Shown piece by piece: positions 7,226 through 21,141 of a stretch of DNA of 22,451 nucleotides (within the stretch, counting starts at the first letter, position 1; each line of letters starts with the position of its first letter). A program made the position numbers and the translations under genes. Where the stretch lies: NCBI GenBank assembly GCA_002383325.1, contig DFYJ01000026.1, forward strand, positions 36,806-59,256, written 5' to 3'. The DNA is from Candidatus Aminicenantes bacterium UBA4085 (GTDB lineage: Bacteria > Acidobacteriota > Aminicenantia > Aminicenantales > UBA4085). The notes under the pieces are model-generated. The model was given only the letters and a program-made list of their open reading frames with translations, did no database searches and was not told the DNA's origin.

Positions 7226-7254
7226 GAGCCCCTCCCCATCCCAACATCAACCGA

Positions 7255-7278
7255 GGCCGACAGAACGTTTTGTCGGCC
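7255..7278. repeat. Perfect 8-bp inverted repeat, 8-base spacer
   Basis: GGCCGACA at 7255-7262 pairs exactly with TGTCGGCC at 7271-7278 around GAACGTTT, itself nearly self-complementary. It lies 27 bp past the PhoD-like stop and 30 bp before the MGMT-like start. Read on the minus strand no T-run follows, so it is not a typical intrinsic terminator. It may be an operator for the MGMT-like gene, or a 3' stem-loop of the upstream message. Confidence 0.6.
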
Positions 7279-7305
7279 CGGCTGTGAGGAAATTGAAATA
7301 GACTC

Positions 7306-9981
7306 CTAAATTTCTATGATCCGTTCGCCCCGGCCTCCCGCGGGCAGGGTCATGACCCGCCGCAGGGTCTTCCAGCGCTCCGTTCCCGGCTCCCCCACCC
7401 GCACGGTGTAGGCGCCGGCCGCGAAGACCTTGGGCCGGAACGATGCGCCCCGGGACCGGACCGTGTAGACGATCTCGCCGTTCCTTTCGTCGACGACCTG
7501 GACGACCGGATTCGCCATGCCCTTGAAGACGAGCGTCGGCAGCCAGGCCTTGGCCGCCCGGCCGTAATTGTCCAGCTGGTTGAGAGTGATCGGCCAGCCC
7601 GGGAAGGGCTTAGCCCCGGGCCCGGTCGGATCCGTCTGCCGCGGCCAGCAGGCCAGGCTGATATCCCGCGTCTCCCGATCAAAAGTGATGATGCCGTACC
7701 CCGTCGATCGGTCGTAGAGAGAGGCCGGCTGCAGCCCCGTGACGTGGGGATTGGCCGCGGCCAGGACGGTCATGCGGTTCCCGAAGGCGTCCTTGAAATC
7801 TCCCGCGTAGCGCGGATCGCCCGGCTTGCGGTTGAGCCCCTTCGCCTTGGGAAACCATCGGCGCGGCCAGAGGTTGGAAATGGCCGGGACGCAGATGGCA
7901 TAGCCCGAATCGCCCCAGGCCTCGAGGCCGTACTTGAGGGTGCTGGGCAGGTGCTGATCGCCGCAGATGTGGAGGGCGAAGGCCTTGCGCATTTCGCGGA
8001 TGGCCGCGGCGCGGGCCGAGGGAGGCCAGCCGTCCGAGTCCATGTCGGCCATCGGGATGTCGTCGGGCGGGTACTCGCCCGGCTCAAGGATCCGGAGCTC
8101 CGGCACGCCGTCGTCCCCCGTCGTACCCTCCGGCAGAGTGGCCGGAGTGGACCAGAGCGTTTGCGACAGCACCGCCTTCATCCACGTCCCGCCCGACCAG
8201 TCGGCGGCCCAATTCCGCAGAAACCTCATCTGCCTTTCGCCCAGGAGCGCCGCTCCCTTGACGTCCGCGGCCGGCACGGCCTTCCAGTCGGGATTCTTGG
8301 CCCAGCCGTTGAGAACCCGGGCCTCGGGAAGCAGGGCCTTGGGCGCCGACTTGAACTTGCGGTCCTCGACGACGGCCAGACTCAAGCCGGCAAAGCGGAC
8401 TTCGCAAAAGTAGACGCCGATGCCCTGCTCCGCGGGCGCCGGGTCGGCCGGGTCGGGCAAATGGCTGGTCTGGGTCCGCTGAACCATGTTGACCCAGCGG
8501 GCCGGCATCTTGTAGCCGCCCGAGTCCTGCGCCTCCATGCTCGGGCCGGGGGAAGCCGCCTTGCCGCCCTCCCCCCAAAGGTTGCCGTGGTAGACGTCAT
8601 GATCGTCGGGGATGGAGATCGCCGGCCGGTCGCGCAGCAGCTCGCCGAAAGCCCAGCCGTAGAGATACCATTTGCGCAGGTAATCCAGGATGGCCGCCTC
8701 CACCGGCGCCGTCTGGGTGCCGTATCCGGCCACCCGCTCATAGATCTGGTCGCCGGCGAAGAACAGCAGGTCGGGATCGAAGCTTCTGACATGCTCGACG
8801 ATCTCGACGTGCGGGAATCCGACATCGTCCTGGCAGCAGAGGGCGGCCAGAGTGAGACGGCGCTTGTCCGTAGGCTCGCGCCGAACCCTGCCCTCATAGG
8901 TGAACGGGGTGCGCGATCGCGGGCCGGCGGCCAGCTCGTAAACGAGGCGATAGGGGACGTCCCGCGACGTGTCCCAGCCGGGGGCGCGGAAGGTCGCCGT
9001 CCGGGCATCGGGATCGATGGGCGCGTCGGCCACATCCATCCAGGTCCCGTCGGCCTTGCGGGTCAAGAGCCGGACGCTCGATCCGTCGGAGGACCCGACG
9101 GGCGGAAGCTGGGCGGTCAGCTTGAGGACGCCGCGGCTCAAGGCGTGCTGGGCGAACAGGATGGGCCCGAAGGCGCCTTCCTCCCGGTTTCTCACCATGC
9201 TGCCGTCGACCGTCCAGTCCGCAAACCAGGCCGCCGAACGGCCCGGCTCCGGCTTCCCAAGCTCAGGCAGATGGCTGACCAGGACGATGTTCCCCTCCAG
9301 GGCGGCCGGATCGAAGCCGCCCTGCTCGACCGAACCGAGAACAGCCTTCGAGGCGGGATCGAGGGCTGCGATCCTCAAAACCGCCCGGCCGCCTTCCGGC
9401 TTGGCCTCGAAGCGCAGCTCGACACCCGACCTGAGAGCCTCGCGCAGGGTCCGTTGGACCGCGCCGCGCTGGAGCTGCTCGAAGTCGCCGATGAACAGGT
9501 CCCCCTCGGACGACAGGCCGGCTTCCAAGCCTTGGCCGTAGATGACGGCGTTGCGAGGGTCGGGGAAGGGGCCCTTGGCGCCGATCCTGAAGCCGACCCA
9601 GTTGCGGCCGCGGGCGCTCTCGAAGGGCACGTCAATGGCCGTGCGGACGCCGACCGTCAGGGTTCCTCCCCCGGGGCCGATCGTCCGCGTCAGAAGATGA
9701 ACGTTGCGGTCCGCGGCCGGCAGAAGGCATTCCAGGCGGCCGTCTCGAATCCGCCAGTCCTGCAGTCGGTTGGTCCAGTATTCCGGACCGGGCCAGATCC
9801 GCTCCACGCCAGCCGGCCAAGCGGAGTGGAAAGCGCTCGGCGCCGGGGATGCCGGCCGGACCGCCGCAGCGGGTAGGGTGACGGCCAGCCCAAGCAAGAG
9901 GACGGCTACGGGTTTTTTTCCCCTGCGATGGGTCAAGCGCATATTCTCTCCCCTTCTCCGCTTCCGCGCCGGGCGAGGCAT
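7306..9981 (-). CDS. PhoD-like alkaline phosphatase/phosphodiesterase, exported
   Basis: This 891-residue exported protein has a C-terminal PhoD-family metallophosphatase domain (about residues 375-760). Metal-site motifs are GDQIYE at 410-415, DDHDVYHGN at 459-467 and GDQH at 674-677. PhoD enzymes hydrolyse phosphate mono- and diesters with Fe3+/Ca2+; the substrate here is unknown. Residues about 60-260 look like a beta-sandwich of the concanavalin/DUF1080 kind (WRIRDGRLECLLP), probably carbohydrate-binding, and a linker domain follows. The residue count is well above a simple PhoD. Two starts have good ribosome binding sites: ATG 9981 (GGGGAGGAAGGA) and ATG 9942 (AAGGGGAGAG). The latter gives 878 residues and a cleaner signal peptide (MRLTHRRGKK then a leucine/alanine run). 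It follows the fucosidase by 18 bp and is the last gene of the glycan-processing series. Confidence 0.87.
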   Translation of the reverse strand: MPRPARKRRRGENMRLTHRRGKKPVAVLLLGLAVTLPAAAVRPASPAPSAFHSAWPAGVERIWPGPEYWTNRLQDWRIRDGRLECLLPAADRNVHLLTRTIGPGGGTLTVGVRTAIDVPFESARGRNWVGFRIGAKGPFPDPRNAVIYGQGLEAGLSSEGDLFIGDFEQLQRGAVQRTLREALRSGVELRFEAKPEGGRAVLRIAALDPASKAVLGSVEQGGFDPAALEGNIVLVSHLPELGKPEPGRSAAWFADWTVDGSMVRNREEGAFGPILFAQHALSRGVLKLTAQLPPVGSSDGSSVRLLTRKADGTWMDVADAPIDPDARTATFRAPGWDTSRDVPYRLVYELAAGPRSRTPFTYEGRVRREPTDKRRLTLAALCCQDDVGFPHVEIVEHVRSFDPDLLFFAGDQIYERVAGYGTQTAPVEAAILDYLRKWYLYGWAFGELLRDRPAISIPDDHDVYHGNLWGEGGKAASPGPSMEAQDSGGYKMPARWVNMVQRTQTSHLPDPADPAPAEQGIGVYFCEVRFAGLSLAVVEDRKFKSAPKALLPEARVLNGWAKNPDWKAVPAADVKGAALLGERQMRFLRNWAADWSGGTWMKAVLSQTLWSTPATLPEGTTGDDGVPELRILEPGEYPPDDIPMADMDSDGWPPSARAAAIREMRKAFALHICGDQHLPSTLKYGLEAWGDSGYAICVPAISNLWPRRWFPKAKGLNRKPGDPRYAGDFKDAFGNRMTVLAAANPHVTGLQPASLYDRSTGYGIITFDRETRDISLACWPRQTDPTGPGAKPFPGWPITLNQLDNYGRAAKAWLPTLVFKGMANPVVQVVDERNGEIVYTVRSRGASFRPKVFAAGAYTVRVGEPGTERWKTLRRVMTLPAGGRGERIIEI

Positions 9982-9993
9982 TCCTTCCTCCCC
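9946..9993 (-). promoter_or_regulatory. Two alternative ribosome binding sites for the PhoD-like gene
   Basis: Read on the minus strand, GGGGAGGAAGGA at 9993-9982 abuts the ATG at 9981, and AAGGGGAG at 9955-9948 lies 5 bases before the in-frame ATG at 9942. Either could initiate translation. The signal peptide is of normal shape only from the second. Confidence 0.55.
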
Positions 9994-9999
9994 TGTCCC

Positions 10000-11571
10000 T
10001 TACTTCGCCCTCTTGTGCAGTCCGAACGCGGCCAGCGTCGGATTCAGACGGGATTGTTCGATGATAATCCGAATCGCATCCGTTGTCACCGGGGCGAAGC
10101 GCAGGAGGCGCTTGGCCCCGACCGTGGTGCCGCGGGCGAACCCGGTCCAGGTCTCTCCTTGGCGGGATTCCAGCCGGAAGGCTTCTATTCTCTGGCCCAC
10201 CCCGATGGCTTCCTGCAGCATCGCACAGTCGAACGTCCCCGTCTTAGCCAGCCTGAGAGTGATCACGGCGGCCTCCGCCTCGGGTTCCGCCTGCCAATAC
10301 GAGGCCGGATCGCCGTCGAGAATGAGCTCGGCGCCATGGCCGGGCGCCCGGGTATCGGCCTTGGCCTTGGCCCCGGCCGCCGCGCTGGCGCCGAAGGTAG
10401 CCTCCAGGATCCTCCGCATCTCCCGCATGGCCGCCGCGTCGCTCTCATGGATCAAGCCCCGCTTGTCGGGAGGGACGTTGAGGAGCAGCACCCCGTTGCG
10501 GCCGACCGAGCTGAAATAGATGTCGACCAGCTTGTCCGGCGGCTTGACCTGGTCATCCTGGTCGGGATGGTAGAACCAGCCCGGCCTGATGGAGACATCA
10601 GTCTCGGCCGGGTACCAGACGAGGGACTTGGCCCCGCGGATCGCCGCGCGGCTGCCCAGGTCCTCCTTGGTCAGGTCCTGGGGGGTGAAAGCCCCGTCCA
10701 GGGGCTCGCGCTGGGAGGCGGAGGCCACGGCGGCAGGGTCGGAGATGTCGGCCGGGACGACGCTCCACTCGGTCTCCCGGCCGTACCCGGATTCGGTCCC
10801 CACCCAGCGCACGTCGGGTCCCATGATGGCGATGACGGCGGCCGGCTGAAGCTCCCGGATGAGCTTGTAGTAGGAGGGCCAGTCGTAGACTTGCTTCTTG
10901 CCGTTGGGGCCCTCGGCGCAGGCGCCGTCGAACCAGACCTCGGCCACCGGGCCGTATCCGGTCAGAAGCTCGCGCAGCTGGGCCCGGAAGTACTCGTTGT
11001 AGCGGGGCGAGTCGCCGTAGGTCTTCTCGTGGCGGTCCCAGGGCGAGAGGTAGACCCCGAAGCCGAGGCCGGCCTCGCGGCAGGCCGCAGCGACTTCGCC
11101 CACGACATCGCCCTTCCCGTCCTTCCAGGGGCTGCTCTTGACCGAGTGGTCCGTCAGCGCCGTGGGCCAGAGGCAGAATCCGTCGTGATGCTTGGCCGTG
11201 ACGATGAGCGTCTTCATCCCGGCCTCCTTCAACACCCGGGCCCACTGGCGCGCGTCCAGCTCCGTCGGATGGAAGAGCTTGGGATCCTCCGTCCCCTCGC
11301 CCCACTCGCGGTTGGTGAAGGTGTTCATGCCGAAGTGGGCGAAGGCGATCAGCTCCCGGGCCTGCCAGTCGGCCTGGCGGGGCGACGGCACGACCGAGGC
11401 GGCCTTGCGGATGACGGCCGCCTCATCGTCGCCCGGCTCGATGAAGGCATAGCTTTTCCCCGGCCCGGACTCGGTCTCCTTCTGCTGGACCTGGAAGACG
11501 ATGATCATGATCGGAATGGCCGCCAGCAAAACCAGGAAGAATCCCATCGCCGCCGATCTCTTGCTCTTCAC
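10000..11571 (-). CDS. Alpha-L-fucosidase, GH29, membrane-anchored or exported
   Basis: This 523-residue retaining alpha-L-fucosidase releases terminal fucose from glycans. The GH29 barrel spans about 65-380: FAHFGMNTF at 77-85, VTAKHHDGFCLWP at 124-136, and EVWFDGA with the predicted nucleophile Asp215. After it, residues about 390-523 (ELILDGDPASYW to the end) look like an F5/8-type C (CBM32-like) beta-sandwich that often binds galactose-containing glycans. Residues 10-27 are a single hydrophobic segment without an obvious cleavage site or lipobox, so it may stay anchored in the inner membrane or be a signal peptide. The start codon is GTG (11571-11569), with AAAGGA about 7 bases upstream. 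It sits 39 bp after the sulfatase and 18 bp before the PhoD-like gene. The family is secure; linkage preference (alpha-1,2/3/4/6) is not visible. Confidence 0.93.
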   Translation of the reverse strand: MKSKRSAAMGFFLVLLAAIPIMIIVFQVQQKETESGPGKSYAFIEPGDDEAAVIRKAASVVPSPRQADWQARELIAFAHFGMNTFTNREWGEGTEDPKLFHPTELDARQWARVLKEAGMKTLIVTAKHHDGFCLWPTALTDHSVKSSPWKDGKGDVVGEVAAACREAGLGFGVYLSPWDRHEKTYGDSPRYNEYFRAQLRELLTGYGPVAEVWFDGACAEGPNGKKQVYDWPSYYKLIRELQPAAVIAIMGPDVRWVGTESGYGRETEWSVVPADISDPAAVASASQREPLDGAFTPQDLTKEDLGSRAAIRGAKSLVWYPAETDVSIRPGWFYHPDQDDQVKPPDKLVDIYFSSVGRNGVLLLNVPPDKRGLIHESDAAAMREMRRILEATFGASAAAGAKAKADTRAPGHGAELILDGDPASYWQAEPEAEAAVITLRLAKTGTFDCAMLQEAIGVGQRIEAFRLESRQGETWTGFARGTTVGAKRLLRFAPVTTDAIRIIIEQSRLNPTLAAFGLHKRAK

Positions 11572-11610
11572 GGTGCCGTCCTTTCCCCGGGCCTCCCGCC
11601 CTCGGCCGCC

Positions 11611-13209
11611 CTACTTCTTGGGCAGGAAGCGGGCTTCGTCGGTATCCTGGTAGAAAGTCCGCAGGCGGGCCAGCTCGGCCTCGAGCTTGCGCCGCGTCCC
11701 GGCATAGGCCGGCTCCGCGGCCACGTTGCGCAGCTCCCTCGGATCCTTCTCCAGATCGTACATCTCCCAGGCGTCGATGTCGTGGTAGAAATGGATCAGC
11801 TTGTAGCGGTCCGTCCGCACGCCGTAGTGACGCTTGACGCTGTGGACGGCCGGGTACTCGAAGTAGTGGTAATAGACCGACCGGCGCCAGTCGGAGGGCG
11901 CCCGGCCGCGCAGGACGCCGCGCAGCGAGCGGCCCTGCATCTCGTCCGGGACGCCGCAGCCGGCATAGTCCAGAAAGGTCGGGGCATAGTCCAGATTGAG
12001 GACCATATCGCGGCGATTGACGGCGGGCGGAATCTCCCGCGGGTAACGGATGATGAGCGGCATGCGCAGCGACTCCTCGTACATGAACCGCTTGTCGAAC
12101 CAGCCGTGCTCGCCCAGGTAGAAGCCCTGGTCCGAGGCATAGATGACCACGGTGTCCTCGGCCAGCCCGGCCGCCTCGAGCCAGTCCAAGACCCGGCCGA
12201 CGTTGTCGTCGACCGAGGCGATGCAGCGCAGATAGTCCTTGATGTAGCGCTGGTACTTCCACTCGGCCAGCTCGCGGCCCTGCAGGCCGGCCTTCCGGAA
12301 GGCCTCATTCTCCTCGGCGTAGGCCCGGGTGAAAATCTCCCTCTCCTCCGGCGTCATGCGGGCCAGGCACCCCTCCCACTCCTTGCGCAGGGCCGCCTCG
12401 GCCGGGGTGTCGTCGGCCGGGGTCGCGTCGGGCGTGAGCTTGAGGTCGTAGCCGGGCATCATGTCGTCCGCGATCCTCATCTTCTGCTCCCGGGCCGCGG
12501 CGCTGCGGGTCGCATAATCGTCGAAGAAGGTGTCGGGGACCGGGAGGCGCTCGCCCTTGTAGAGGTCCAGATGCTTGGGGTCGGGCAGCCAGTTGCGGTG
12601 CGGGGCCTTGTGGTGCAGCAGGACGCAGAAGGGCTTCGAGGCGTCGCGGCCCTTGAGCCAGCCGAGGGCCTGGTCGGTGATCAAATCGGTGACGTAGCCT
12701 TGGCGGGCCGCGCGGACCCCGCCGGTGATGAAGTCCGGATTGTAGTAGTCGCCCTGGCCGGGCAGGATGGACCAATGATCGAAGCCGGTCGGGTCGGACT
12801 TGAGGTGCCACTTGCCGAACAGCGCGGTCTGGTAGCCGGCTGCGCGGAGGAGCTTGGGAAAGGTCGTCTGGGAGCCGTCGAACGCGACGGCGTTGTCGAT
12901 GACGCCGTTCTTGTGGCTGTACTGGCCGGTCAGCAGAACGGCCCGGCAGGGCGCACAGATGGAGTTGGTGCAGAAGCTGCGCTCGAAGCGGACGCCTCCG
13001 GCGGCCAGCCGGTCGATGGACGGGGTCTTGTTCAGCCGGCCGTCGTAGCAGGAGATGGCCTGGTAGGCGTGATCGTCGGACATCATGAAGAGGATGTTCG
13101 GCCGCTTCGCCGCGCCGCCCGATCGGCGCGTCGTCCGGACCCACGGACCGGCGGAGGCCAAGGGGACCGCCCCGGCCATCTTCAGAAAATCCCTTCTCTT
13201 GATCGCCAT
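11611..13209 (-). CDS. Tat-exported S1-family sulfatase, GlcNAc-6-sulfatase-like
   Basis: This 532-residue type I sulfatase removes sulfate esters from glycans. It opens with a Tat leader (KRRDFLKMAGAVPLASAG). Metal ligands are Asp45-Asp46 and Asp360-Gln361; Lys133 and His135 lie in GKWH, Lys373 follows. The formylglycine motif is C85-A-P-C-R89: the convertible Cys85 and Arg89 are present, but the usual fourth-position serine is cysteine. The block MSDDHAYQAIS and the run GKWHLKS, GFDHW, LPGQGDYYNPDF resemble bacterial N-acetylglucosamine-6-O-sulfatases (SulfAtlas S1_11, BT4656 type) from memory, so a 6-sulfated GlcNAc or related sugar is the best guess. The frame is open far upstream to 14733, but that part overlaps the preceding gene; the ATG at 13209 has an AAGGAGA site 5 bases upstream and the Tat leader, which decides the start. 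No formylglycine-generating enzyme is in the window. Confidence 0.94.
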   Translation of the reverse strand: MAIKRRDFLKMAGAVPLASAGPWVRTTRRSGGAAKRPNILFMMSDDHAYQAISCYDGRLNKTPSIDRLAAGGVRFERSFCTNSICAPCRAVLLTGQYSHKNGVIDNAVAFDGSQTTFPKLLRAAGYQTALFGKWHLKSDPTGFDHWSILPGQGDYYNPDFITGGVRAARQGYVTDLITDQALGWLKGRDASKPFCVLLHHKAPHRNWLPDPKHLDLYKGERLPVPDTFFDDYATRSAAAREQKMRIADDMMPGYDLKLTPDATPADDTPAEAALRKEWEGCLARMTPEEREIFTRAYAEENEAFRKAGLQGRELAEWKYQRYIKDYLRCIASVDDNVGRVLDWLEAAGLAEDTVVIYASDQGFYLGEHGWFDKRFMYEESLRMPLIIRYPREIPPAVNRRDMVLNLDYAPTFLDYAGCGVPDEMQGRSLRGVLRGRAPSDWRRSVYYHYFEYPAVHSVKRHYGVRTDRYKLIHFYHDIDAWEMYDLEKDPRELRNVAAEPAYAGTRRKLEAELARLRTFYQDTDEARFLPKK

Positions 13210-13214
13210 GACGG

Positions 13215-13221
13215 TCTCCTT
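13215..13221 (-). promoter_or_regulatory. Ribosome binding site AAGGAGA of the sulfatase
   Basis: AAGGAGA on the minus strand begins within the TGA stop codon of the preceding metallophosphoesterase gene (13223-13221) and lies 5 bases before the sulfatase ATG. The arrangement suggests translational coupling and fixes the sulfatase start. Confidence 0.8.
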
Positions 13222-15035
13222 CAATCGCGGAGGCGGAAGACCGCCACCGCGCCGTCGACGTTGGCCGCCGCGAAGCGGCCGCCCCCCATGGGGACAAGGG
13301 TATGCACACAGCCCGGGCCGAGATCGAGCAGGGTCTCGACCCGCCCGCCCTCGTCGATGGACAGGATGCGGCCGGTCCGGGCCCCCAGCAGGATGCGCCC
13401 CTTCCACTCCAGCGGCGCGCCCGGCTCGAGCTCGCCGGCGCCGTGGGCCGGGGCGATGCGCCGCAGGATCCGGCCGTCGGCCGCGTCCAGGACGAGAACG
13501 GCGTCCAGTCGCGACTTGATCAGGATCCGTCGCCCGTCCTCCGAGAGGCCCAGCGATTCCCAAGCCCCGGCCTGGACCCGCCAGACGGTCTGGCCGGTCG
13601 CCAGGTCGACCGCGGAGACGAATCCGTCCGGGGCGCAGAAGAAGACCCGGCGCCCGTCGCTTGCGGGAGCGCATCCGGCCGGGGAGTAGTAGAAATTGTC
13701 GTTCTCGGTCCAGCGCCACAGCTCCTTGCCTGTCGCCGCGTCCACCGCATGGGCGCTTCCATCCCAGGCCCCAAAGACCAGCCGGCCGCCGACGGGAAGG
13801 GGCGCCGATTGGATGAGCCCCTTGGCCGCATCGCTTGTCAGGTAGGGGGTCAAGTTGAACGAGTTGGTGGCCAAGATCCGGCCGGTCGACGTCCCCAGCC
13901 AGAAGCGCGGGATCCGGCCGGAACGCGTCTCGAAGGGAACAAGGGGGGACGTCGGGCGCAAGCCGAGATCCGCGGCGCTGAACAAGCCGCCCCGCGCCGC
14001 GTCCAGCTTCACGATCCGGCCGTCCGCGGAGGCGGCCAGGAGGAACTTGCCCTGGACGGCGGGCCGGCTGATGAACGGCGCTTTGGCCTGATAGGTCCAA
14101 AGGATCTTGCCTGTCCGGCTCCAGCAGGTGATGCGCCCCCCATGGTCGGCCGCGTAAAGGCGCCGGCCGTCCGAGATCGGCCCGGCGGCGAGCCGCCGGC
14201 CCAGATCCCGGCGCCAGAGGACCTCGGCCCGGGACGGGAGCGTCGGGACCGGAGCCAAGGCCGCGGCCGGAGCCCTCCCCCGCCGCGAGAACGCGCCCCA
14301 CAGACGCGGGATCCCGGCTGCATCGGGGCGGCCGATCTCCACGGTCGAACGGTCGAGCGTCACCACGGCCATCGAAGGCGGCCGGTCGTCGCCGGCCAGG
14401 GCCGCCCGGACCGTCCAGACGGGCAGGCCATGGAAATAGTCCTGACGATCGGCGTGGACGTGGCCGGCGATGACGACGGTCCGGCGCGTCCGCAGGGCGG
14501 CATGCACGCGGGCCCAGTTGTCGATGCTCGGAGGCGGGAAATGGACGAAGAAGAAGACGTCCGCGTCGGCGGGAATGCGGCGAATCCGGTCTTCGAGCCA
14601 CAGGACGTCGTCGGGGGCGAAGTGGCCCTGGTCCCAGGCGCTCAGACCGAGGAAGAAGGCGCCGCCCATCTCGAAATCGAAACGATCGCCGCCAAAGGCC
14701 CGCTGGAAGCCGTAGCCCCCGAAGCCGGCCCAATGCGTGTCATGGTTGCCGGGGAGAACATGGCAGGGCGCCTTCAGGCGGCCGAGGAGAGCCTTGGCTT
14801 CCTCCAACTCCGCGTCGCGGCCCTTTTCCGTGACGTCGCCCGCCACGACCACGAAGCGGATGGAGGGATCGGCATTGATGGCTTGGACCAGGGCGGCCAG
14901 CCCGGAAGATGCAGCGGCCCCGGATCCGATATGGGTATCGGCCAGGACGGCGAAGGCGAGGGGCTGGGCGGCCGCACCGAGGCACAGAAGGAGGGACAAC
15001 GCCAGACCCGCCAGGGCAGGGCGAATGAGCTTCAT
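13221..15035 (-). CDS. Metallophosphoesterase fused to PQQ-type beta-propeller
   Basis: This is a 604-residue exported protein with two domains. After a signal peptide (residues 1-23, ending GAAAQ) comes a calcineurin-like phosphoesterase (about 25-225) with all five metal motifs: D33-x-H35, G66-D67, G96-N97-H98-D99, His165 and G191-H-x-H194. Residues about 270-604 are a beta-propeller of PQQ/quinoprotein-like repeats: ITCWSRTGKILWTY, VDAATGKELWRW, VDLATGQTVWRV and LDAADGRILRRI mark successive blades. The cofactor-binding tryptophan-disk pattern of true PQQ dehydrogenases is not recognisable, so the propeller is likely a binding or scaffold unit. Acting in the periplasm or outside, it could cleave a phosphate mono- or diester on a glycan; the substrate is unknown. 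An excellent GGAGGAAGGA site precedes the ATG. It follows the GH27 gene by 61 bp and its stop overlaps the sulfatase ribosome binding site. Confidence 0.88.
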   Translation of the reverse strand: MKLIRPALAGLALSLLLCLGAAAQPLAFAVLADTHIGSGAAASSGLAALVQAINADPSIRFVVVAGDVTEKGRDAELEEAKALLGRLKAPCHVLPGNHDTHWAGFGGYGFQRAFGGDRFDFEMGGAFFLGLSAWDQGHFAPDDVLWLEDRIRRIPADADVFFFVHFPPPSIDNWARVHAALRTRRTVVIAGHVHADRQDYFHGLPVWTVRAALAGDDRPPSMAVVTLDRSTVEIGRPDAAGIPRLWGAFSRRGRAPAAALAPVPTLPSRAEVLWRRDLGRRLAAGPISDGRRLYAADHGGRITCWSRTGKILWTYQAKAPFISRPAVQGKFLLAASADGRIVKLDAARGGLFSAADLGLRPTSPLVPFETRSGRIPRFWLGTSTGRILATNSFNLTPYLTSDAAKGLIQSAPLPVGGRLVFGAWDGSAHAVDAATGKELWRWTENDNFYYSPAGCAPASDGRRVFFCAPDGFVSAVDLATGQTVWRVQAGAWESLGLSEDGRRILIKSRLDAVLVLDAADGRILRRIAPAHGAGELEPGAPLEWKGRILLGARTGRILSIDEGGRVETLLDLGPGCVHTLVPMGGGRFAAANVDGAVAVFRLRD

Positions 15036-15096
15036 GTCCTTCCTCCAGTCTCCCCGCAGTCTCCGGCCCGGATCCCGGGGGGAAACGCGCCGCGCG

Positions 15097-16635
15097 CTAA
15101 GCCTTGACCGGCCTCAGGCGGACCAGCAGGACGCCGTGCCGGCCGACCAGGCCCTCGAAAGAGCCCTCGATGGCGCCGGCGCCGATATCCTTCTGCCGCC
15201 ACAGGTCGCGCACGACCTGCGGCCCCTCGATCCCCAGGGCTTTCCAGTCCACACGGATCGGCTTCATCCCCTCGCCGCGGTTGAACAGCCCCACGGCCAC
15301 GGAGCCGTCATCGAGCGGACGCGCCCAGACCTCCAGGTCGCCGTCCTTCTTGATCCGGCGGGCCGGCCGGCCCAGCGAATCCTGATCGACCTCCAGGACC
15401 TCGTCGTTGGTCAGCAGGCCGAGGGTGAAGTCGTCCATCCGGGTGATGTCGCCGCTGAAGATGAGCGGGGCGGCCAGCAGGCACCACAACGAGACATGCG
15501 CATACTGCTCGTTGGGGGTCAGCGGCGAGGGCGCCGTGCCCCCTTCCCAGTTGGAGAGGTAGCCCAGCAGCAGGTAGTCGGGGTCGTTCCAGCCGCCCTG
15601 CCCGCCGTATTTGTGGAGGCCCTTGTCGGCGTAGAGATCGAAGCCGTCCTGAAAGAGCTTGAGGCCGATCTTCTCGAAGGACGAGCCCAGGTCGCCGGCG
15701 GTCCGCCAGCTGTGGCCGCCCACCTCCTGGCCCCACTCCCAGACGTCGGCCATGCCGTATTGACAAAGGTTGAGGACGATGTCGCGCGGCTGCTTGGCCA
15801 GGATGGCGCTGATCTCGCGGTAGGGCCGCTGGTACTCGGCCAGGCTCTTGTCCTTGGCGACCTGGGCGAAGGTGCACCAGTCGTACTTCAGGAAGTCGAA
15901 GCCCCACTCGACGAAGCGCCGGACATCCTGCTCCTCATGCTTGTAAGCGCCGACATGGCCGGCGCAGGTCAGCGGGCCGGGCGAGGTGTAGATGCCGGCC
16001 TTGAGGCCCAGGCTGTGGATCAGGTCGGTCAGGCCCTTCATGTCGGGGAAGCGGCCGTTGGAGTTGACCAGACCCTTCCTGTCGCGGGCCTCGCCCATCA
16101 AGGAGGGCTCCTTGGAATCGGGACGGACGGCCCAGCAGTCGTCGATGTTGACGTACATGTAGCCATGGTCCTTCATCCCGGTGTCGACCATGGCCTGGGC
16201 CGCCGCCTGCATGATCTCGTGGGTGACATGGTTTTCCCAGACGTACCAGGAGTTCCAGCCCATGTGCGGCGTCAGGGCCAGGGTGTCGAGGCCGCAGACG
16301 ATCTTAAGCATCCGCTCGGCGGCGCCCTTGGCGTTGGCGGCGCGCAGAGTGACCGTCCAGTCACCCAGGTCCTTGATCGTGCCCGTGATGAAGCCGGTGG
16401 CCGGGTCGAGCGACAGCCCGGGCGGTAAGCCTTCGGCCGAGAAGGCCATCGGCCTCTCGCCGGTGGCGGGCACGGCAAAGAGGAAGGGCGTGTTGGGGCG
16501 GCAGCCGAAGAGCTTGGTGCCGTTGATCCGCGGCTCCGGACCGGGCTTGGGAGTGAGAACGAGTCGTTCCTCAGCCGCCCCTCCGGCGGCGGCGATCAAG
16601 GTCAGGAAAAGTACGGCGGCAACGGTCTTGCGCAT
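15097..16635 (-). CDS. Alpha-galactosidase, GH27, with N-terminal Ig-like domain
   Basis: This 512-residue exported retaining enzyme cleaves terminal alpha-galactose (some GH27 members cleave alpha-GalNAc). A signal peptide occupies about residues 1-21. Residues about 45-114 match a putative Ig domain (He_PIG): GLPPGLSLDPATGFITG. The GH27 barrel starts with LTPHMGWNSWY (121-131), has NIDDCW at 163-168, predicted nucleophile Asp252 in KYDWC and predicted acid/base Asp315 in RTAGD. A C-terminal beta domain ends the protein (VAVGLFNRGE). The longer frame begins at 16653, but the ATG at 16635 has AAGGAGA 5 bases upstream and starts a normal signal peptide, so I chose it. It lies 29 bp after the Tat phosphoesterase and 61 bp before the phosphoesterase-propeller gene. 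Family and catalytic residues are clear; choice between galactose and GalNAc is not. Confidence 0.94.
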   Translation of the reverse strand: MRKTVAAVLFLTLIAAAGGAAEERLVLTPKPGPEPRINGTKLFGCRPNTPFLFAVPATGERPMAFSAEGLPPGLSLDPATGFITGTIKDLGDWTVTLRAANAKGAAERMLKIVCGLDTLALTPHMGWNSWYVWENHVTHEIMQAAAQAMVDTGMKDHGYMYVNIDDCWAVRPDSKEPSLMGEARDRKGLVNSNGRFPDMKGLTDLIHSLGLKAGIYTSPGPLTCAGHVGAYKHEEQDVRRFVEWGFDFLKYDWCTFAQVAKDKSLAEYQRPYREISAILAKQPRDIVLNLCQYGMADVWEWGQEVGGHSWRTAGDLGSSFEKIGLKLFQDGFDLYADKGLHKYGGQGGWNDPDYLLLGYLSNWEGGTAPSPLTPNEQYAHVSLWCLLAAPLIFSGDITRMDDFTLGLLTNDEVLEVDQDSLGRPARRIKKDGDLEVWARPLDDGSVAVGLFNRGEGMKPIRVDWKALGIEGPQVVRDLWRQKDIGAGAIEGSFEGLVGRHGVLLVRLRPVKA

Positions 16636-16640
16636 GGGCC

Positions 16641-16647
16641 TCTCCTT
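16641..16647 (-). promoter_or_regulatory. Ribosome binding site AAGGAGA of the GH27 gene
   Basis: AAGGAGA on the minus strand lies 5 bases before the ATG at 16635. The longer in-frame ATG at 16653 has no comparable site, so this decides the start. Confidence 0.78.
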
Positions 16648-16664
16648 GGGCATGGCTTGCCCCT

Positions 16665-17624
16665 CTATCGAAGATCCGGTCGCCGGGCCTCTAGGGTCCG
16701 GCTCTCGCTTGCGAGCTTGTGGAATCCGCGGATGCGGACCGTGCCGTCGGGCGCGGCCTGGGCCAGGACGTAGGCGTTGTTCGCAGGGCCGGAGCCCTCG
16801 CCCGCGGCCTTGAGCGTGATGTAGGCGATGCCGTCGATCTCCGAAAAGCCGCCTTCGTGGCGATGGCCCTGGAAGACGGCCCGGACGCGCTGGGAGTCGG
16901 ACAGGATCCGGCGGGCCGCGGCGGCGTTCTTGACATAGTAGGCGCCTTCCCCGTCGAGCTGCTGGTGGACGAAGACGACGGCCGGGCCCCGGCCGGCGGC
17001 CAGGTCGGCTTGGAGCCAGTCCAGCTCGGCCGGGGGAAAGTTGCAGTCCTCCCAGGCGAAGTCGCCGCGGCTGAACTCCCGCCCGTCCGAGCGGAAGTTG
17101 GGATCCAGGACGACAAAGTGAACGCCCCGGAGGTCGAAGGAATAATAGGTCTTCGATGGGGGGATGCCGGTATTGGGCGCGGCGGCCAGAAACTCGGCTT
17201 TAGTCAAGCTGTCCTCGTCGTGGTTGCCCAGGGCGTGGTAGCGCGGCCCCTTAAATCCGGCCAAGACGGCCTCGATCGTCCGCAGGAAGGAAAGTGTCCG
17301 GACCGGCACGGGCTGGATGTCCTGATCCTTGAAGTCGCCCAGCTCGACGATGAAGTCGGCTTTCTCCGCGTTCATGGTCTCGACGAATTCTGCCAGCTTG
17401 GCCGTCGACTCCCGGTACATGCGGCCGCCGGCCGGGTCGCGGTCGGCGTAGTGCAGGTCGGCGATCAAGCCGAAGCGGACCGGCGCAGCCGCTCCGGGGG
17501 CCGGGCCGAGGCGCGGCCCAAAGCAGGCCGCCGCGGCGAGGAGAAGGAACGGGAGCAGCCGCCAAGAAGCCCGAGCGGCCAGGCCGCAACCGGCGTTTTG
17601 GAGGAACTTCCTTCGGGTGGTCAT
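16665..17624 (-). CDS. Tat-exported metallophosphoesterase
   Basis: This 319-residue calcineurin-like phosphoesterase has a Tat leader (TTRRKFLQNAG, then a leucine/alanine-rich segment about 22-34). It carries the complete set of metal motifs: D56-x-H58, G96-D97, G133-N134-H135-D136, His220 and G253-H-x-H256. Size and motif spacing fit the purple-acid/cAMP-phosphodiesterase-like group (CpdA/Icc or ACP5-like), but the leader places it in the periplasm, so a glycan or nucleotide phosphoester is more likely than cytoplasmic cAMP. The frame is open to an ATG at 17696, overlapping the stop of the UroD-like gene. I prefer 17624 because the Tat motif begins right there and because a -10-like TAGAAT lies within the longer version. 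No strong Shine-Dalgarno sequence precedes it. It is followed by the GH27 gene after 29 bp. The substrate is unknown. Confidence 0.88.
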   Translation of the reverse strand: MTTRRKFLQNAGCGLAARASWRLLPFLLLAAAACFGPRLGPAPGAAAPVRFGLIADLHYADRDPAGGRMYRESTAKLAEFVETMNAEKADFIVELGDFKDQDIQPVPVRTLSFLRTIEAVLAGFKGPRYHALGNHDEDSLTKAEFLAAAPNTGIPPSKTYYSFDLRGVHFVVLDPNFRSDGREFSRGDFAWEDCNFPPAELDWLQADLAAGRGPAVVFVHQQLDGEGAYYVKNAAAARRILSDSQRVRAVFQGHRHEGGFSEIDGIAYITLKAAGEGSGPANNAYVLAQAAPDGTVRIRGFHKLASESRTLEARRPDLR

Positions 17625-17635
17625 GGGGCGCTTGG

Positions 17636-17660
17636 GCTTCCCTATTCTATCGAGGGAAGC
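17636..17660. repeat. Perfect 8-bp inverted repeat around a -10 element
   Basis: GCTTCCCT at 17636-17643 pairs exactly with AGGGAAGC at 17653-17660 around a 9-base spacer (17644-17652) that contains TAGAAT on the minus strand. It stands 12 bp before the phosphoesterase ATG at 17624. It could be an operator for a dimeric repressor or a hairpin in the message. Confidence 0.6.
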
Positions 17661-17672
17661 GAGATATCTCCA
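17644..17672 (-). promoter_or_regulatory. Candidate internal promoter of the glycan gene series
   Basis: On the minus strand TGGAGA (17672-17667, 4 of 6 to the -35 consensus) and TAGAAT (17649-17644, 5 of 6 to the -10 consensus) are separated by exactly 17 bp. Predicted transcription starts near 17637, leaving a short leader before the ATG at 17624. It would drive the phosphoesterase and the five genes after it independently of the first two genes. Confidence 0.42.
17661..17670. repeat. 10-bp perfect palindrome in the promoter spacer
   Basis: GAGATATCTC is a perfect 10-bp palindrome directly adjoining the inverted repeat at 17636-17660 and overlapping the candidate -35 element. Its position suits a regulator site, though a 10-bp palindrome can occur by chance. 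Confidence 0.4.
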
Positions 17673-17683
17673 GCCCGAGCCTT

Positions 17684-18799
17684 TCAATAGACGCATTCAT
17701 GGGCGGCCGCGGCGAAAGCCTTGAGGTTCTCCACCGGCGCATCGAAGAAATGGTCCGAGGCCGAGCAGATGTACCCGCCCTGGTCCCCCACCGTCTCGAA
17801 GAGCTTGCGGACCGTCCGGCGGATGTGGTCCGGCGTGCCGGTCGTCAGGACGTTGAACTGGTCCACCCCGCCGATCAGCGCCAGGCGGCCGCCGATCTTG
17901 CGCTTGAATTCCCAAGGCTCCTGGTTGCCGCCGATCGAGAGCGGGGCCAGGGTCTCGGAAGCGTCGGCCCCGTTGCGGACGATCAGATCCTCGATGCCGA
18001 AGGTGCCGCCGCAGGTGTGATAGATCACTTTGAAGCCCAGGTCGTGCAGGGCGTCGTGCATGACCCGATCGTAGGGCAGGCAGAACTCCTCGTGCATCCG
18101 GGGCGAGATGAGGGTCGAGGAAGCCGAGCCGCCGCCCGTCTCGATCAGGTCGAAGCGGGCCCCGCGCATGGACTCGATGAAGCGGAGCTTCTTCGCCAGC
18201 AGGATCTTGAGCAGGGCGTGGACCCAGTCCGGCTTGTCGATGGCGGCCATGATCAGTTCGCTGATGTCCATCAGGCAGGCGGCGTGCTGCCAGCAGCCGG
18301 CCTGGTCGCCCCAGACGAAGCCGCGCAGGATGCCGTGGCCGCCGACCTCGTCGTAGCGGCGGAGGACCGGGGCCGGATCCAACCTGGGCACGGGCATGAA
18401 GTCGCGGATGAGGTCGATATCCTCGTCCCGCTTGACGAGGTACTCGGTGATCCAGGTCGTTCTGCGATCGCCCTCGGTCTTGTAGGTCAGAAGGCCCCGG
18501 GGCGTCGTGATGGCATGGTGGACGACCCGGTGGTCGGGATCGGCCGAGATGACCACGGCCTCGTCGCGCCAGTCCGGGGAGCCGATCTTGTTGAAGTCGG
18601 CATCCGTCAGCCAGAACTGGTCCATGCTCTCGAAGTATTGGATCTGGGCGTCGAAGCCGACGGCCCGGTTGGCAGCCAGGTCGTCCATCCCGCGCATGAA
18701 CGTGTCCAGGTGGTACTTCTGCCACTGGTGCACGGTGACGGGCAGGCGGTCGGGCTTCTCGCGGTTCAGAGCGGCGAGCAGGCGTTCCTTGCTGGTCAT
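17684..18799 (-). CDS. UroD-fold methyltransferase-like protein with HxC...C site
   Basis: This 371-residue soluble protein belongs to the uroporphyrinogen decarboxylase superfamily. It starts MTSKERLLAALNREKPDRLPV, typical of the methyltransferase branch (MtaA/MtbA/CmuA-like) found in many environmental genomes. His261-Thr-Cys263 (IYHTCGG) and Cys345 (GGYICSASDH) form an H-x-C-Xn-C pattern with 81 residues between the cysteines. In cobalamin:coenzyme M methyltransferases this pattern binds a catalytic zinc; true uroporphyrinogen decarboxylase lacks it. So methyl transfer from a corrinoid or methylated substrate is more likely than heme synthesis. No corrinoid protein or heme gene is nearby. 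GAAGGAAG precedes the ATG. It follows the beta-helix gene by 22 bp, so it is probably co-transcribed with glycan-degrading enzymes, suggesting a role in handling O-methyl groups of sugars. That role is inference; the fold and zinc pattern are visible. Confidence 0.87.
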   Translation of the reverse strand: MTSKERLLAALNREKPDRLPVTVHQWQKYHLDTFMRGMDDLAANRAVGFDAQIQYFESMDQFWLTDADFNKIGSPDWRDEAVVISADPDHRVVHHAITTPRGLLTYKTEGDRRTTWITEYLVKRDEDIDLIRDFMPVPRLDPAPVLRRYDEVGGHGILRGFVWGDQAGCWQHAACLMDISELIMAAIDKPDWVHALLKILLAKKLRFIESMRGARFDLIETGGGSASSTLISPRMHEEFCLPYDRVMHDALHDLGFKVIYHTCGGTFGIEDLIVRNGADASETLAPLSIGGNQEPWEFKRKIGGRLALIGGVDQFNVLTTGTPDHIRRTVRKLFETVGDQGGYICSASDHFFDAPVENLKAFAAAAHECVY

Positions 18800-18821
18800 G
18801 GCTTCCTTCTCAGTTCATTCC

Positions 18822-21083
18822 TTATCTGTTTTTGCGGAATTCATCAACGACCAAACCCATGCCCTCGAGCGGGATCGGCTGGAAGCCGATCCGGGCGGCG
18901 GGAGAGCCGGGCGGGATGGTCAAGGTCATCCGGGCCGGATCAAAGGCCGCGGGGGGGTCAGGGGGAAAGAGATTGCCGGCGAATTCCCTGGCCATGGCCG
19001 GGTCGCCGGGCCGGAGCAGGACATAGCTCCGGCCCAGGTCGATATTGAGATAGTAGGGATCCCAACCCTTGAAGCCGGGCTCGAGCCGCCGCAAAAGGGC
19101 CGGGTCGGCCGAGACGTTGTCCTTGAACTCAACTAGGCCCAAGTCGAAAACGTTGGCATCATAGACATCCAGCCAGCGCCCGCCCCAGGAGATGTTGCGG
19201 ACGATGCGGTTGCCCTTGGGCCGGGCCGGCTCGTCCTGCAGGATCGTCTTGAGCCCGGGATAGCGCTCCGAGTAGGGCGGCTCCCCGGCTTTCATCTCGG
19301 CGTAGGTCTTGAACAGCGTTGGGTAGGTGCCGTCGAAATAGTAGCCCGCCCAGCTCAGCCCGCGGGCATCGACATGCAGGGCCGGCGAGCCCTCGATGAC
19401 AACGTTGTTCTCGACCAGGTTGTCCCGGCCGCCGCCGATCATGATGGAGCGCCCGGCCCGGACCAGCAGGTTGCCGAAGACGGTGAAGCCCGAGCCCCAG
19501 TCGTCCAGGTAGATGCCCATGACGCCGTGCAGGCCCGGCCCTTGGAGGTCGTGGATGTAGTTGTACCGCAGGACGTTGCCCCGCCAGGTCCAGTCGCGGC
19601 CCGTGTGGAAGGCCCCCGAGTCTCCCGTCTCCCGGCAGACGCCGAAGATCTCGTTGGACTCGATGACGTGGTCGTTGCCGGCCAGGACGATGGCCTCGTG
19701 CGGCGCGTCGTGGATCCGGTTATGGGACGTCAGGCTTCCGACTCCCGCCAGCCGGATCGCCACCTGCCCGGTCCGGATCCAGCGGCTGAAGCGGTAGATG
19801 TCGTTGTTGATCGCGGCGTGTCGGCCCGGGAGGAGGGTCTTCCGGTCGCCGCCTTCGAGGCGGATGCCTCCCAGGGCCAGGTCATGGATATCGCAGGAGC
19901 GCACTTCGCAGGCCTCTCCACCCTCGATCATGACGGCATCCCCGCCCAGGTTGGTCAGCTCGCAGCCGGCCAGCCGGACGCGGCGCGAATCCTTGACCAC
20001 GGCCCCCGGCCCGCGCGATTCGGCGAAAGTCAGGCCTTCGAAGGACAGATCGGATGCGCCCTCGACAAGCAGGAGCGGCTCGGCCAGCATCGAGACCGCC
20101 AGGCTGCCGGCGCCCGCCGGCTCCGGAGGCCAGACATAGAGTCGGCCGGCGGCGCGGTCCAAGGCCCACTCCCCGGGCCGGTCGAGCTCCTCCAGGACAT
20201 TGAGGAAGCGGAAGCGCTGGCCCTTGGTATAGCCGTAGCTGTGGTGCGGCTCGGACAGGACAACCTCGCCCCGGCGGCGGTCGATGGAGGCGACTTTCTG
20301 GACGGAGTCGCTCCAATCCCAGGTCCAGTAGCCGTGGACATAGATCTCGCCGGCGTCGGACCAGCGGGCCATACGGTCATCCCGGCAAGCGATGCGGCCG
20401 TAGTGGCGTCCGACGGGCACGCCGTCGAAGCGCTTCTCCCGCTCCAGGCCCTCGTGCAGGCGCCTGGGGCCTGATTGGGGCACATCGGAGATCAGGAGCC
20501 AGCCTTCGTCGGGATAGGCCGCCAGCGGCATGAGCTCCCGGCCGGAGAAGAGCTCCAGCCCGGGCGAGCCGCGCGGCTCGATCGGCCCCGGATCGGCGAT
20601 GCCTTGGGCCTTCAGATCGGCGACACGGATACTCCCTCTGGCTTCCGGCGCCAGGCGGGACAGGACGGCGGGGTCGAGGACCGGGGAAAGGCCTTCAAGG
20701 GCTCGATCGCCGGTGACGCGGACTTCATCTCCCGGCTTGGCCCGCCAGCGGACCGGATGCCCCGGGCGGCCCGAGTCGGCCGCGCCGAAGCGCCAGGAAG
20801 TCCCCAGGCGATAGTCGCCGGCGGCGATCCAGACGGTGACATCGGCTTCGGCGGAACGGCTATCGCCCAGGACGGACCGCACAGCCCGGCGGGCCGCCTC
20901 GAGCGTCGCCAGCGGCCCGTCCGTCCGATCCGCGTTCGGCTCGGCCAGACGCCCCGACCAGGCATCGCTACCTGAGGGCGCGACGTAGCGCACGATCCCG
21001 AGTGAGCGGCCCGAACAGGAGATCGTTCCCGAGGCCAGGACGGCGCCGAGGCCCAAGGCGATGACAAGGGCTCTCTTCGGCAT
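18822..21083 (-). CDS. Right-handed beta-helix protein, GH141-like, exported
   Basis: This 753-residue exported protein is probably a glycan-active enzyme. Its signal peptide (MPKRALVIALGLGAVLASG) ends in TISC, a loose lipobox that would make Cys23 a lipid anchor. Near the N terminus IVRYVAPSGSDAWSG and PLATLEAARRAVR are the usual opening of large parallel beta-helix enzymes. A beta-sandwich-like insert follows, then the helix (about 335-585), with repeated short strands such as VRLAGCELTNLGGDAVMIEGG and HVIESNEIF. The block GAFHTGRDWTWRGN (about 490-503) and GIYLDDWGSG resemble GH141, a family with alpha-L-fucosidase (BT1002) and xylanase members. I cannot confirm catalytic residues. The frame is open from 21101; the ATG at 21083 gives a normal signal peptide. 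Neither start has a Shine-Dalgarno sequence. It is the first gene of the eight-gene series; the UroD-like gene follows after 22 bp. Confidence 0.82.
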   Translation of the reverse strand: MPKRALVIALGLGAVLASGTISCSGRSLGIVRYVAPSGSDAWSGRLAEPNADRTDGPLATLEAARRAVRSVLGDSRSAEADVTVWIAAGDYRLGTSWRFGAADSGRPGHPVRWRAKPGDEVRVTGDRALEGLSPVLDPAVLSRLAPEARGSIRVADLKAQGIADPGPIEPRGSPGLELFSGRELMPLAAYPDEGWLLISDVPQSGPRRLHEGLEREKRFDGVPVGRHYGRIACRDDRMARWSDAGEIYVHGYWTWDWSDSVQKVASIDRRRGEVVLSEPHHSYGYTKGQRFRFLNVLEELDRPGEWALDRAAGRLYVWPPEPAGAGSLAVSMLAEPLLLVEGASDLSFEGLTFAESRGPGAVVKDSRRVRLAGCELTNLGGDAVMIEGGEACEVRSCDIHDLALGGIRLEGGDRKTLLPGRHAAINNDIYRFSRWIRTGQVAIRLAGVGSLTSHNRIHDAPHEAIVLAGNDHVIESNEIFGVCRETGDSGAFHTGRDWTWRGNVLRYNYIHDLQGPGLHGVMGIYLDDWGSGFTVFGNLLVRAGRSIMIGGGRDNLVENNVVIEGSPALHVDARGLSWAGYYFDGTYPTLFKTYAEMKAGEPPYSERYPGLKTILQDEPARPKGNRIVRNISWGGRWLDVYDANVFDLGLVEFKDNVSADPALLRRLEPGFKGWDPYYLNIDLGRSYVLLRPGDPAMAREFAGNLFPPDPPAAFDPARMTLTIPPGSPAARIGFQPIPLEGMGLVVDEFRKNR

Positions 21084-21097: not shown

Positions 21098-21141
21098 CCA
21101 TACGGCCGCGGGGCGGGCGAGAGGCGCGGAACGTCCGGCCA

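Follow-up and report, generated by a model that had tools for sequence, protein, structure and literature searches.

We analysed a 22,451-nucleotide stretch (the window) of contig DFYJ01000026.1 from Candidatus Aminicenantes bacterium UBA4085, in which eight adjacent genes are likely to serve the dismantling of a decorated glycan. All eight open reading frames (ORFs) lie on the minus strand, from 7306 to 21083 or 21101 (Table 1). In the order of transcription, they encode a GH141-type protein, a UroD-fold protein (UroD371), a metallophosphatase, a GH27 enzyme, a phosphatase/beta-propeller fusion, an S1 sulfatase, a GH29 enzyme and a PhoD-like protein, and the gaps computed with the likeliest starts are 22, 59, 11, 61, 11, 39 and 18 bp. 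The ORFs and gaps thus bear out the original prediction of eight genes on one strand, 11–61 bp apart; we consider that they probably form one operon. The sulfatase start, as read from the sequence, is the ATG at 13209, and an alternative start of the metallophosphatase ORF at 17696 would overlap the UroD stop. The G+C content at third codon positions (GC3) of the eight genes (0.86–0.93) is close to that of three neighbours (0.84–0.90), giving no sign of recent foreign origin.

Table 1. Genes and other features of the window (position 1 is the first letter of the stretch).
Feature	Position	Strand	Support or remark
GH141-type right-handed beta-helix glycoside hydrolase, signal peptide; first gene of the cluster	18822..21083	-	ORF start possible at 21101
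UroD-fold protein UroD371 (371-aa family), candidate methyltransferase, without export signal	17684..18799	-	PF01208 1.5e-25
Calcineurin-like metallophosphoesterase, Tat-type signal	16665..17624	-	PF12850 25.7 bits; PDB 2nxf E 4.4e-6
GH27 alpha-galactosidase-type exo-glycosidase, N-terminal Ig-like domain, exported	15097..16653	-	PF16499 9.1e-39; PF05345 3e-8
Calcineurin-like phosphatase + PQQ/BamB-type beta-propeller fusion, exported	13221..15035	-	PF00149 4.7e-15; PF13360 5.5e-27
S1 sulfatase, Cys-type CAPCR activation motif, Tat signal	11611..13209	-	PF00884 5.2e-51 with SGSH_C
GH29 alpha-L-fucosidase, F5/8C domain, exported or membrane-anchored	10000..11571	-	PF01120 5.6e-41; PF00754 5.8e-9
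Long PhoD-like exported phosphatase/phosphodiesterase; last gene of the cluster	7306..9981	-	PF09423 25.5 bits
Perfect 8-bp hairpin GGCCGACA-loop-TGTCGGCC in the PhoD/MGMT-like intergenic region	7255..7278		inverted repeat, without T-tract
Periplasmic sugar-binding protein (PBP), outside the eight genes, ~6 kb off	32..1039	-	PF13407 1.1e-56

The protein families named beforehand were also recovered by Pfam. The cut-offs were passed for GH29, GH27, the sulfatase, both parts of the fusion (Metallophos and PQQ_2), URO-D and the right-handed beta-helix; PhoD and Metallophos_2 stayed just under their cut-off of 27 bits, for which reason we call the former protein PhoD-like only. The export signals expected in seven of the eight proteins were found as well: by a simple hydropathy scan (not a trained predictor), these seven start with a hydrophobic stretch or carry a Tat motif, and the UroD-fold protein does neither.

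The GH29 protein appears nearest to alpha-L-fucosidases of the alpha-1,3/4 type, as it matches 4zrx (E 1.8e-152) and 3mo4 and 3ues (E ~1e-136) in PDB. Its WFDG and GTESG stretches, presumably the nucleophile and the acid/base, align with WLDG and GNEAG of 3mo4. The match of the GH27 protein to 4nzj (E 9.3e-98) covers both of what we take to be the catalytic Asp stretches, KYDWC and WRTAGD being aligned with KYDYC and WRVSGD. The S1 sulfatase seems nearest to the GlcNAc-6-sulfatases: it matches the N-acetylglucosamine-6-sulfatase (GlcNAc-6-sulfatase) 5g2v (E 9.8e-180, 602 bits), besides the mucin-desulfating sulfatase 7p24 (582 bits) and the exo-L-galactose-6-sulfatase 7lha (355 bits). With the S1_11 sulfatases 5g2v and 7p24 (BT4656 and BT3177/BT1628), matched at 580–600 bits, it has in common the stretches GWFDKR and HSVKRHYG, which presumably hold the sugar-recognition triad. 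In contrast, its CAPCR stretch, which we assume to be the formylglycine motif C-x-P-x-R, carries Cys where the 5g2v sequence carries Ser.

The alignments used in this study (A1, A2, A3 and A4) comprise 20, 22, 11 and 28 picked rows, respectively, and the homologue lists hold the best 120 of 200, 2993 and 1375 sequences from ~8000 candidates. The GH141-type sequence on its own did not reach E 1e-3 against PDB; the A4 profile was needed, and matched 5mqp with E 1.2e-18, pointing to a relation to BT1002. With the GH141 family (BT1002, Xyn141E and the Wf141 endo-fucanases), the protein shares this profile match and the fold over 488 residues, albeit with a structural alignment to BT1002 at ~20% identity. 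All rows of A4 keep D494 and D533/D534, which lie 39–40 residues apart, to be compared, by spacing alone, with the catalytic Asp pair D523/D564 of BT1002, spaced by 41 (PMC12786026). The original prediction saw no endo-acting enzyme at the locus unless the beta-helix protein were one, a statement that finds no support in this form: the protein groups with GH141, of which the founder BT1002 is endo-acting and which includes endo-fucanases and a xylanase (PMC10154630, PMC12786026).

The PhoD-like sequence carries GDQIY, DDHD and GDQH, presumed metal-site motifs, and the nearest PDB match of the metallophosphoesterase (2nxf) is a putative dimetal phosphatase. In the fusion protein, D33, H35, G66-D67, G96-N97-H98-D99, H165, G191-H192 and H194 do not vary among the 20 rows of A1. 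Phosphate had been proposed as one of the decorations of the glycan; this is not supported as stated, its basis being the phosphatase motifs only.

We searched 142 genomes of the class for the window genes, each gene at its own E-value limit, and obtained matches in 11 genomes for the fusion, 26 for UroD371, four for GH141 and 36 for PhoD. The neighbourhoods were read in 26/26 UroD371, 9/11 fusion, 3/4 GH141 and 9/36 PhoD genomes, and at the other fetched loci of window-type GH29. The gene orders rest on tblastn matches, in maps that omit matches below 70 or 60 bits and lower-scoring overlaps, and on Pfam, as the gene caller miscalls some antisense frames. This search, named beforehand as the check that could refute the prediction, found parts of the window order kept in at least seven of the 142 genomes (G001, G002, G003, G004, G083, G084 and G090). 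In G001, HI0933 and GH141-UroD share a contig, and GH27-fusion-GH29-MGMT stands on a second one; this is the layout of the window minus S1 and PhoD, with the metallophosphatase expected in the gap between the contigs. G002 carries UroD-GH29b (an extra GH29)-GH27-fusion-S1-GH29 on one contig and the GH29 end-PhoD-PBP-GH38 on another. The remaining orders are UroD-GH27 and GH27-fusion (G003), UroD-GH27-GH29-GH116-PBP-GH38 (G083), UroD-GH27 (G084), HI0933 and UroD-S1(other)-metallophosphatase with S1-GH29-PhoD on a second contig (G090), and UroD-S1(other)-1579-aa PKD protein-fusion, accompanied by GH29, a small gene, an other S1 and PhoD (G004). Thus, the adjacencies UroD-GH27, GH27-fusion, S1-GH29 and GH29-PhoD recur with genes 43–89% identical to those of the window, and HI0933 is the divergent neighbour in the window, G001 and G090. 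In the G002 locus, we also noticed GH29 and GH27 in a single 1051-aa open frame with one ambiguous codon (L082, 4359–7514), either a fusion or a sequencing artefact.

The commonest members in the relatives are UroD, GH27, the fusion and GH29. The UroD-fold protein had been given no role, yet it is the commonest in this setting among the members searched one by one. GH141, S1 and PhoD are exchangeable cargo, and we read the locus as a slot that begins with UroD (or GH141-UroD) and carries such cargo. On this basis, we find it rather likely that the eight genes represent one glycan-dismantling cluster, a single system of variable composition. The prediction of one system for a decorated glycan stands in that the cluster is co-ordered and parts of its order recur; it has to be qualified in that the order is only partly conserved and the membership varies. 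With three of the eight genes encoding distinct metallophosphatases, one could also propose a phosphorus scavenging operon, in which the exported phosphatases and the sulfatase free phosphate and sulfate from organic debris and the glycosidases give access. We consider this very improbable, since UroD, GH27 and GH29 prevail in the relatives, G001 has no PhoD between its GH29 and MGMT genes, and the G083 stretch yielded no phosphatase.

Several observations weigh against a single system. We failed to find all eight genes in a row in any relative read; these are mostly fragmented contigs of metagenome-assembled genomes (MAGs). Within the class, GH141 stands beside UroD only in G001, and the window-type S1 occurs only in G002 and G090. 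In 19 of the 26 UroD371 genomes, nothing of the window-type order is seen next to UroD (the G088 contig stops 500 bp behind this gene). The nine PhoD loci read include two of the window type (G002 and G004) and one with GH141 (G096); the other six hold none of these genes in the stretch, except for a distant S1 in G008. Window-type GH29 in other genomes is often alone or beside a symporter-like gene. Such a pattern, with different cargo in the same slot of close relatives and with PhoD and GH29 often located elsewhere, would fit a loose neighbourhood, that is, catabolic genes acquired independently in a permissive slot next to HI0933 and acting on separate substrates rather than in a pathway. 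The single strand, the short gaps and the repeated adjacencies described above argue against this alternative, which we judge unlikely. A further point for one system is G096, an AT-rich member of the class without a UroD371 match, where a same-strand GH141-type gene begins 80 bp behind PhoD, at the contig end (L112, 11440–14532).

UroD371 belongs to a large family: among 7998 sequences scored, 2993 homologues were found at E <1e-3, the best 120 of which are 69–90% identical over 96–100% of the length and bear names including Acidobacteriota, Phycisphaerae, Terriglobia and Omnitrophica. No PDB match was obtained at E 1e-3. The fold is that of UroD/MtaA and does not discriminate. HemE was considered and rejected, as the hemE model gave no match at 1e-3 for the window protein and a weak one (E 5e-4) for one of the 22 aligned rows. 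By sequence, UroD371 is not HemE and is nearest to the MtaA/CmuA methyltransferases: the MtaA/CmuA model is matched by all 22 rows (best E 7.8e-26), and the best NCBIfam families are methyltransferases for each of them. H261-x-C263 aligns with the His-x-Cys of the methylcobalamin:CoM methyltransferase 4ay7 (profile alignment, E 0.005), residues that we take to be zinc ligands. Of these, H261 is conserved in 120/121 and C263 in 121/121 sequences. C345 (114/121), a possible third ligand, is not aligned to MtaA and is replaced by Leu in the other seven; five aligned UroD paralogues keep HxC and lack C345.

The linkage of UroD371 to glycan enzymes extends beyond the window-type order. GH29 genes were mapped in all 26 UroD371 genomes (107 matches), and in 15 of these a GH29 gene lies within 10 kb of UroD371, where 0.76 would be expected at random placement; none of 200,000 simulations reached 15, the highest being seven, with the genomes treated as independent, which they are not. 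Indeed, eight of the 15 linkages repeat a single arrangement, in which GH29 lies 1.1–1.4 kb away on the other strand, which lessens their weight. In L097 (5998–11735), the cassette next to UroD371 encodes another UroD-fold protein (28–30% identical) together with GH29, a sodium:solute symporter and a small protein; L094 and L095 share this arrangement, as judged from tblastn and N-terminal likeness (Pfam for L097 only).

In Hydrogenedentota, UroD371 was detected in nine of 68 genomes, and a glycan-related gene lies within 5 kb in four of the nine loci (a raw count, with ten neighbours put to Pfam). L130 carries a GH106 rhamnosidase within 5 kb, L132 a GH141-type gene at 0.4 kb (A4 profile E 9.7e-56; PF21231 23.2 bits for a cut-off of 27), L129 a GH36-type gene at 4 kb, and L136 an L-rhamnose mutarotase near UroD371. 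Second UroD-fold genes are found near UroD371 in L133, L136 and L137, and L134 and L135 are alike by eye. In L136 (2483–5158), UroD371, the second UroD-fold gene and the mutarotase are consecutive, pointing to 6-deoxy-hexose metabolism.

UroD371 may represent a new branch of UroD-fold methyltransferases for anaerobic O-demethylation of methylated (deoxy)sugars, a tentative assignment that we judge rather unlikely. It shares the fold, the HxC motif and the nearest profile families with MtaA/CmuA and the UroD-type O-demethylases (MtvB, OdmB, MtoB and CdmB), but differs from them in scoring below curated cut-offs, in the lack of a corrinoid protein found in the locus, and in having glycosidases as neighbours. 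The score is an objection, as the window protein reaches 84 bits with the MtaA/CmuA model TIGR01463, far under the cut-off of 235.4. The corrinoid partner is another: a motif pattern gave two matches in 75 neighbourhood sequences, judged to be chance, and the PF02607 corrinoid and RACo genes of the 26 genomes lie elsewhere than UroD371. The same pattern matched 13 of 14 control corrinoid/RACo loci (the missed one holds no PF02607 match), so that its silence near UroD371 counts. These results, together with the inconstant C345, favour an ordinary cluster of carbohydrate-active enzymes, in which UroD371 is some other TIM-barrel enzyme, for instance a lyase or hydrolase acting on a sugar or sugar acid, and transfers no methyl group. 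We regard this alternative as a real possibility, albeit somewhat short of an even chance. It has to accommodate the uniform methyltransferase profile matches and the nearly invariant HxC, kept even in the paralogues. Corrinoid-dependent O-demethylases also belong to the UroD superfamily, and some of them lack zinc (PMC13222342), which likewise speaks against this alternative. Corrinoid domains occur in 26/26 and RACo in 24/26 UroD371 genomes, but a corrinoid domain is also carried by nine of 14 control genomes. RACo is present in 55 of 116 UroD371-negative genomes as well, which speaks against the methyl-transfer step. Orphan corrinoid proteins of Aminicenantia (L163, L165, L167, L169 and L174) have, by eye, genes resembling those of peptidases and symporters as neighbours; the one in L174 is directly followed by a 336-aa UroD-fold gene.

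Returning to the glycan-dismantling cluster, the target would be a fucosylated and sulfated glycan, perhaps O-methylated, degraded outside the cytoplasm. The exported GH141-type enzyme would open or trim the chain, the S1 sulfatase would free a terminal 6-sulfated sugar, GH29 would take off alpha-1,3/4-type fucose, and GH27 an alpha-galacto-type end group. The three metallophosphatases may remove phosphoryl groups or salvage phosphate, which is the weakest step of the scheme. Import of the released sugars would fall to a transporter whose genes lie elsewhere; in two relatives, a gene for a sugar-binding protein adjoins the cluster, next to PhoD in G002 and to GH116 in G083. Inside the cell, UroD371 might move the methyl ether of an imported sugar onto a corrinoid protein encoded elsewhere, although such demethylation of O-methyl sugars is, in our estimation, speculative. 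Under that same uncertain proposal, its substrates could be 2-O-methyl-fucose or 2-O-methyl-xylose freed by GH141, GH29, GH27 or rhamnosidases. The GH141 gene 22 bp upstream of UroD371, adjacent to it in G001 and 0.4 kb off in another phylum, fits a path of release followed by demethylation. BT1002 releases 2-O-methyl-D-xylose-alpha-1,3-L-fucose from rhamnogalacturonan II (RG-II) (PMC10154630). As for the nature of the glycan, the combination of a GlcNAc-6-sulfatase-like S1, an alpha-1,3/4-fucosidase and an alpha-galacto exo-enzyme suggests sulfated Lewis/mucin-like structures or the antennae of N-glycans, and GH38 and GH116 of the relatives would suit these; GH141, the sulfatase and GH29 equally suggest a fucan, and the methyl chemistry points to RG-II or an exopolysaccharide of bacterial origin.

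Polysaccharide utilization loci of Bacteroidota for RG-II, mucin and fucoidan likewise cluster exported GH141, GH29, GH27 and S1 enzymes on one decorated glycan, and the nearest solved relatives of the four window proteins presumably include Bacteroides enzymes. The window locus differs in that no SusC/SusD was found, in the added metallophosphatases and UroD-fold protein, and in that no regulator was recognised among the window genes. The absence of SusC/D noted in the original prediction is correct for the 15 window proteins scanned by Pfam; it says little, as SusD (PF07980) was found in none of the 26 related genomes, where SusC was not searched. The locus is mostly a new arrangement of known enzymes. 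It illustrates, for an uncultured class, glycan gene clusters that lack SusD and whose cargo is exchangeable, and its UroD371 family merits further study. When RG-II and algal and bacterial exopolysaccharides are degraded anaerobically, methyl ethers count among the last hurdles, and we know of no characterised anaerobic sugar O-demethylase, albeit no search was aimed at one. If the proposal holds true, UroD371, found in Acidobacteriota, Hydrogenedentota, Phycisphaerae and Omnitrophica with identities near 70%, would provide methyl ethers in complex glycans with an anaerobic route that has been missing until now, the methyl group entering C1 metabolism. As its genes are physically tied, in two phyla, to those of fucosidases and GH141-type proteins, it is a directly testable candidate.

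The cluster is flanked upstream by the divergent gene for an HI0933-type flavoprotein and downstream by genes for an MGMT-like protein, a flippase/glycosyltransferase, a radical SAM protein (rlmN-like), an MFS transporter and the periplasmic sugar-binding protein. The hairpin behind PhoD received no call in the terminator prediction; the region around it (7226–7308) has a folding energy of -40 kcal/mol (z -4.5), and it may mark a possible boundary of the cluster. Close homologues with names come from Acidobacteriota or Candidatus Aminicenantes, and of the related contigs, those most akin to the window (L001, L002, L003 and L005) are Aminicenantes or Acidobacteriota MAGs; by homology, the window belongs to Aminicenantia. 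At 3944–6691 of the window, a polysaccharide-flippase domain and a glycosyltransferase-4-type domain are joined in one 915-aa ORF.

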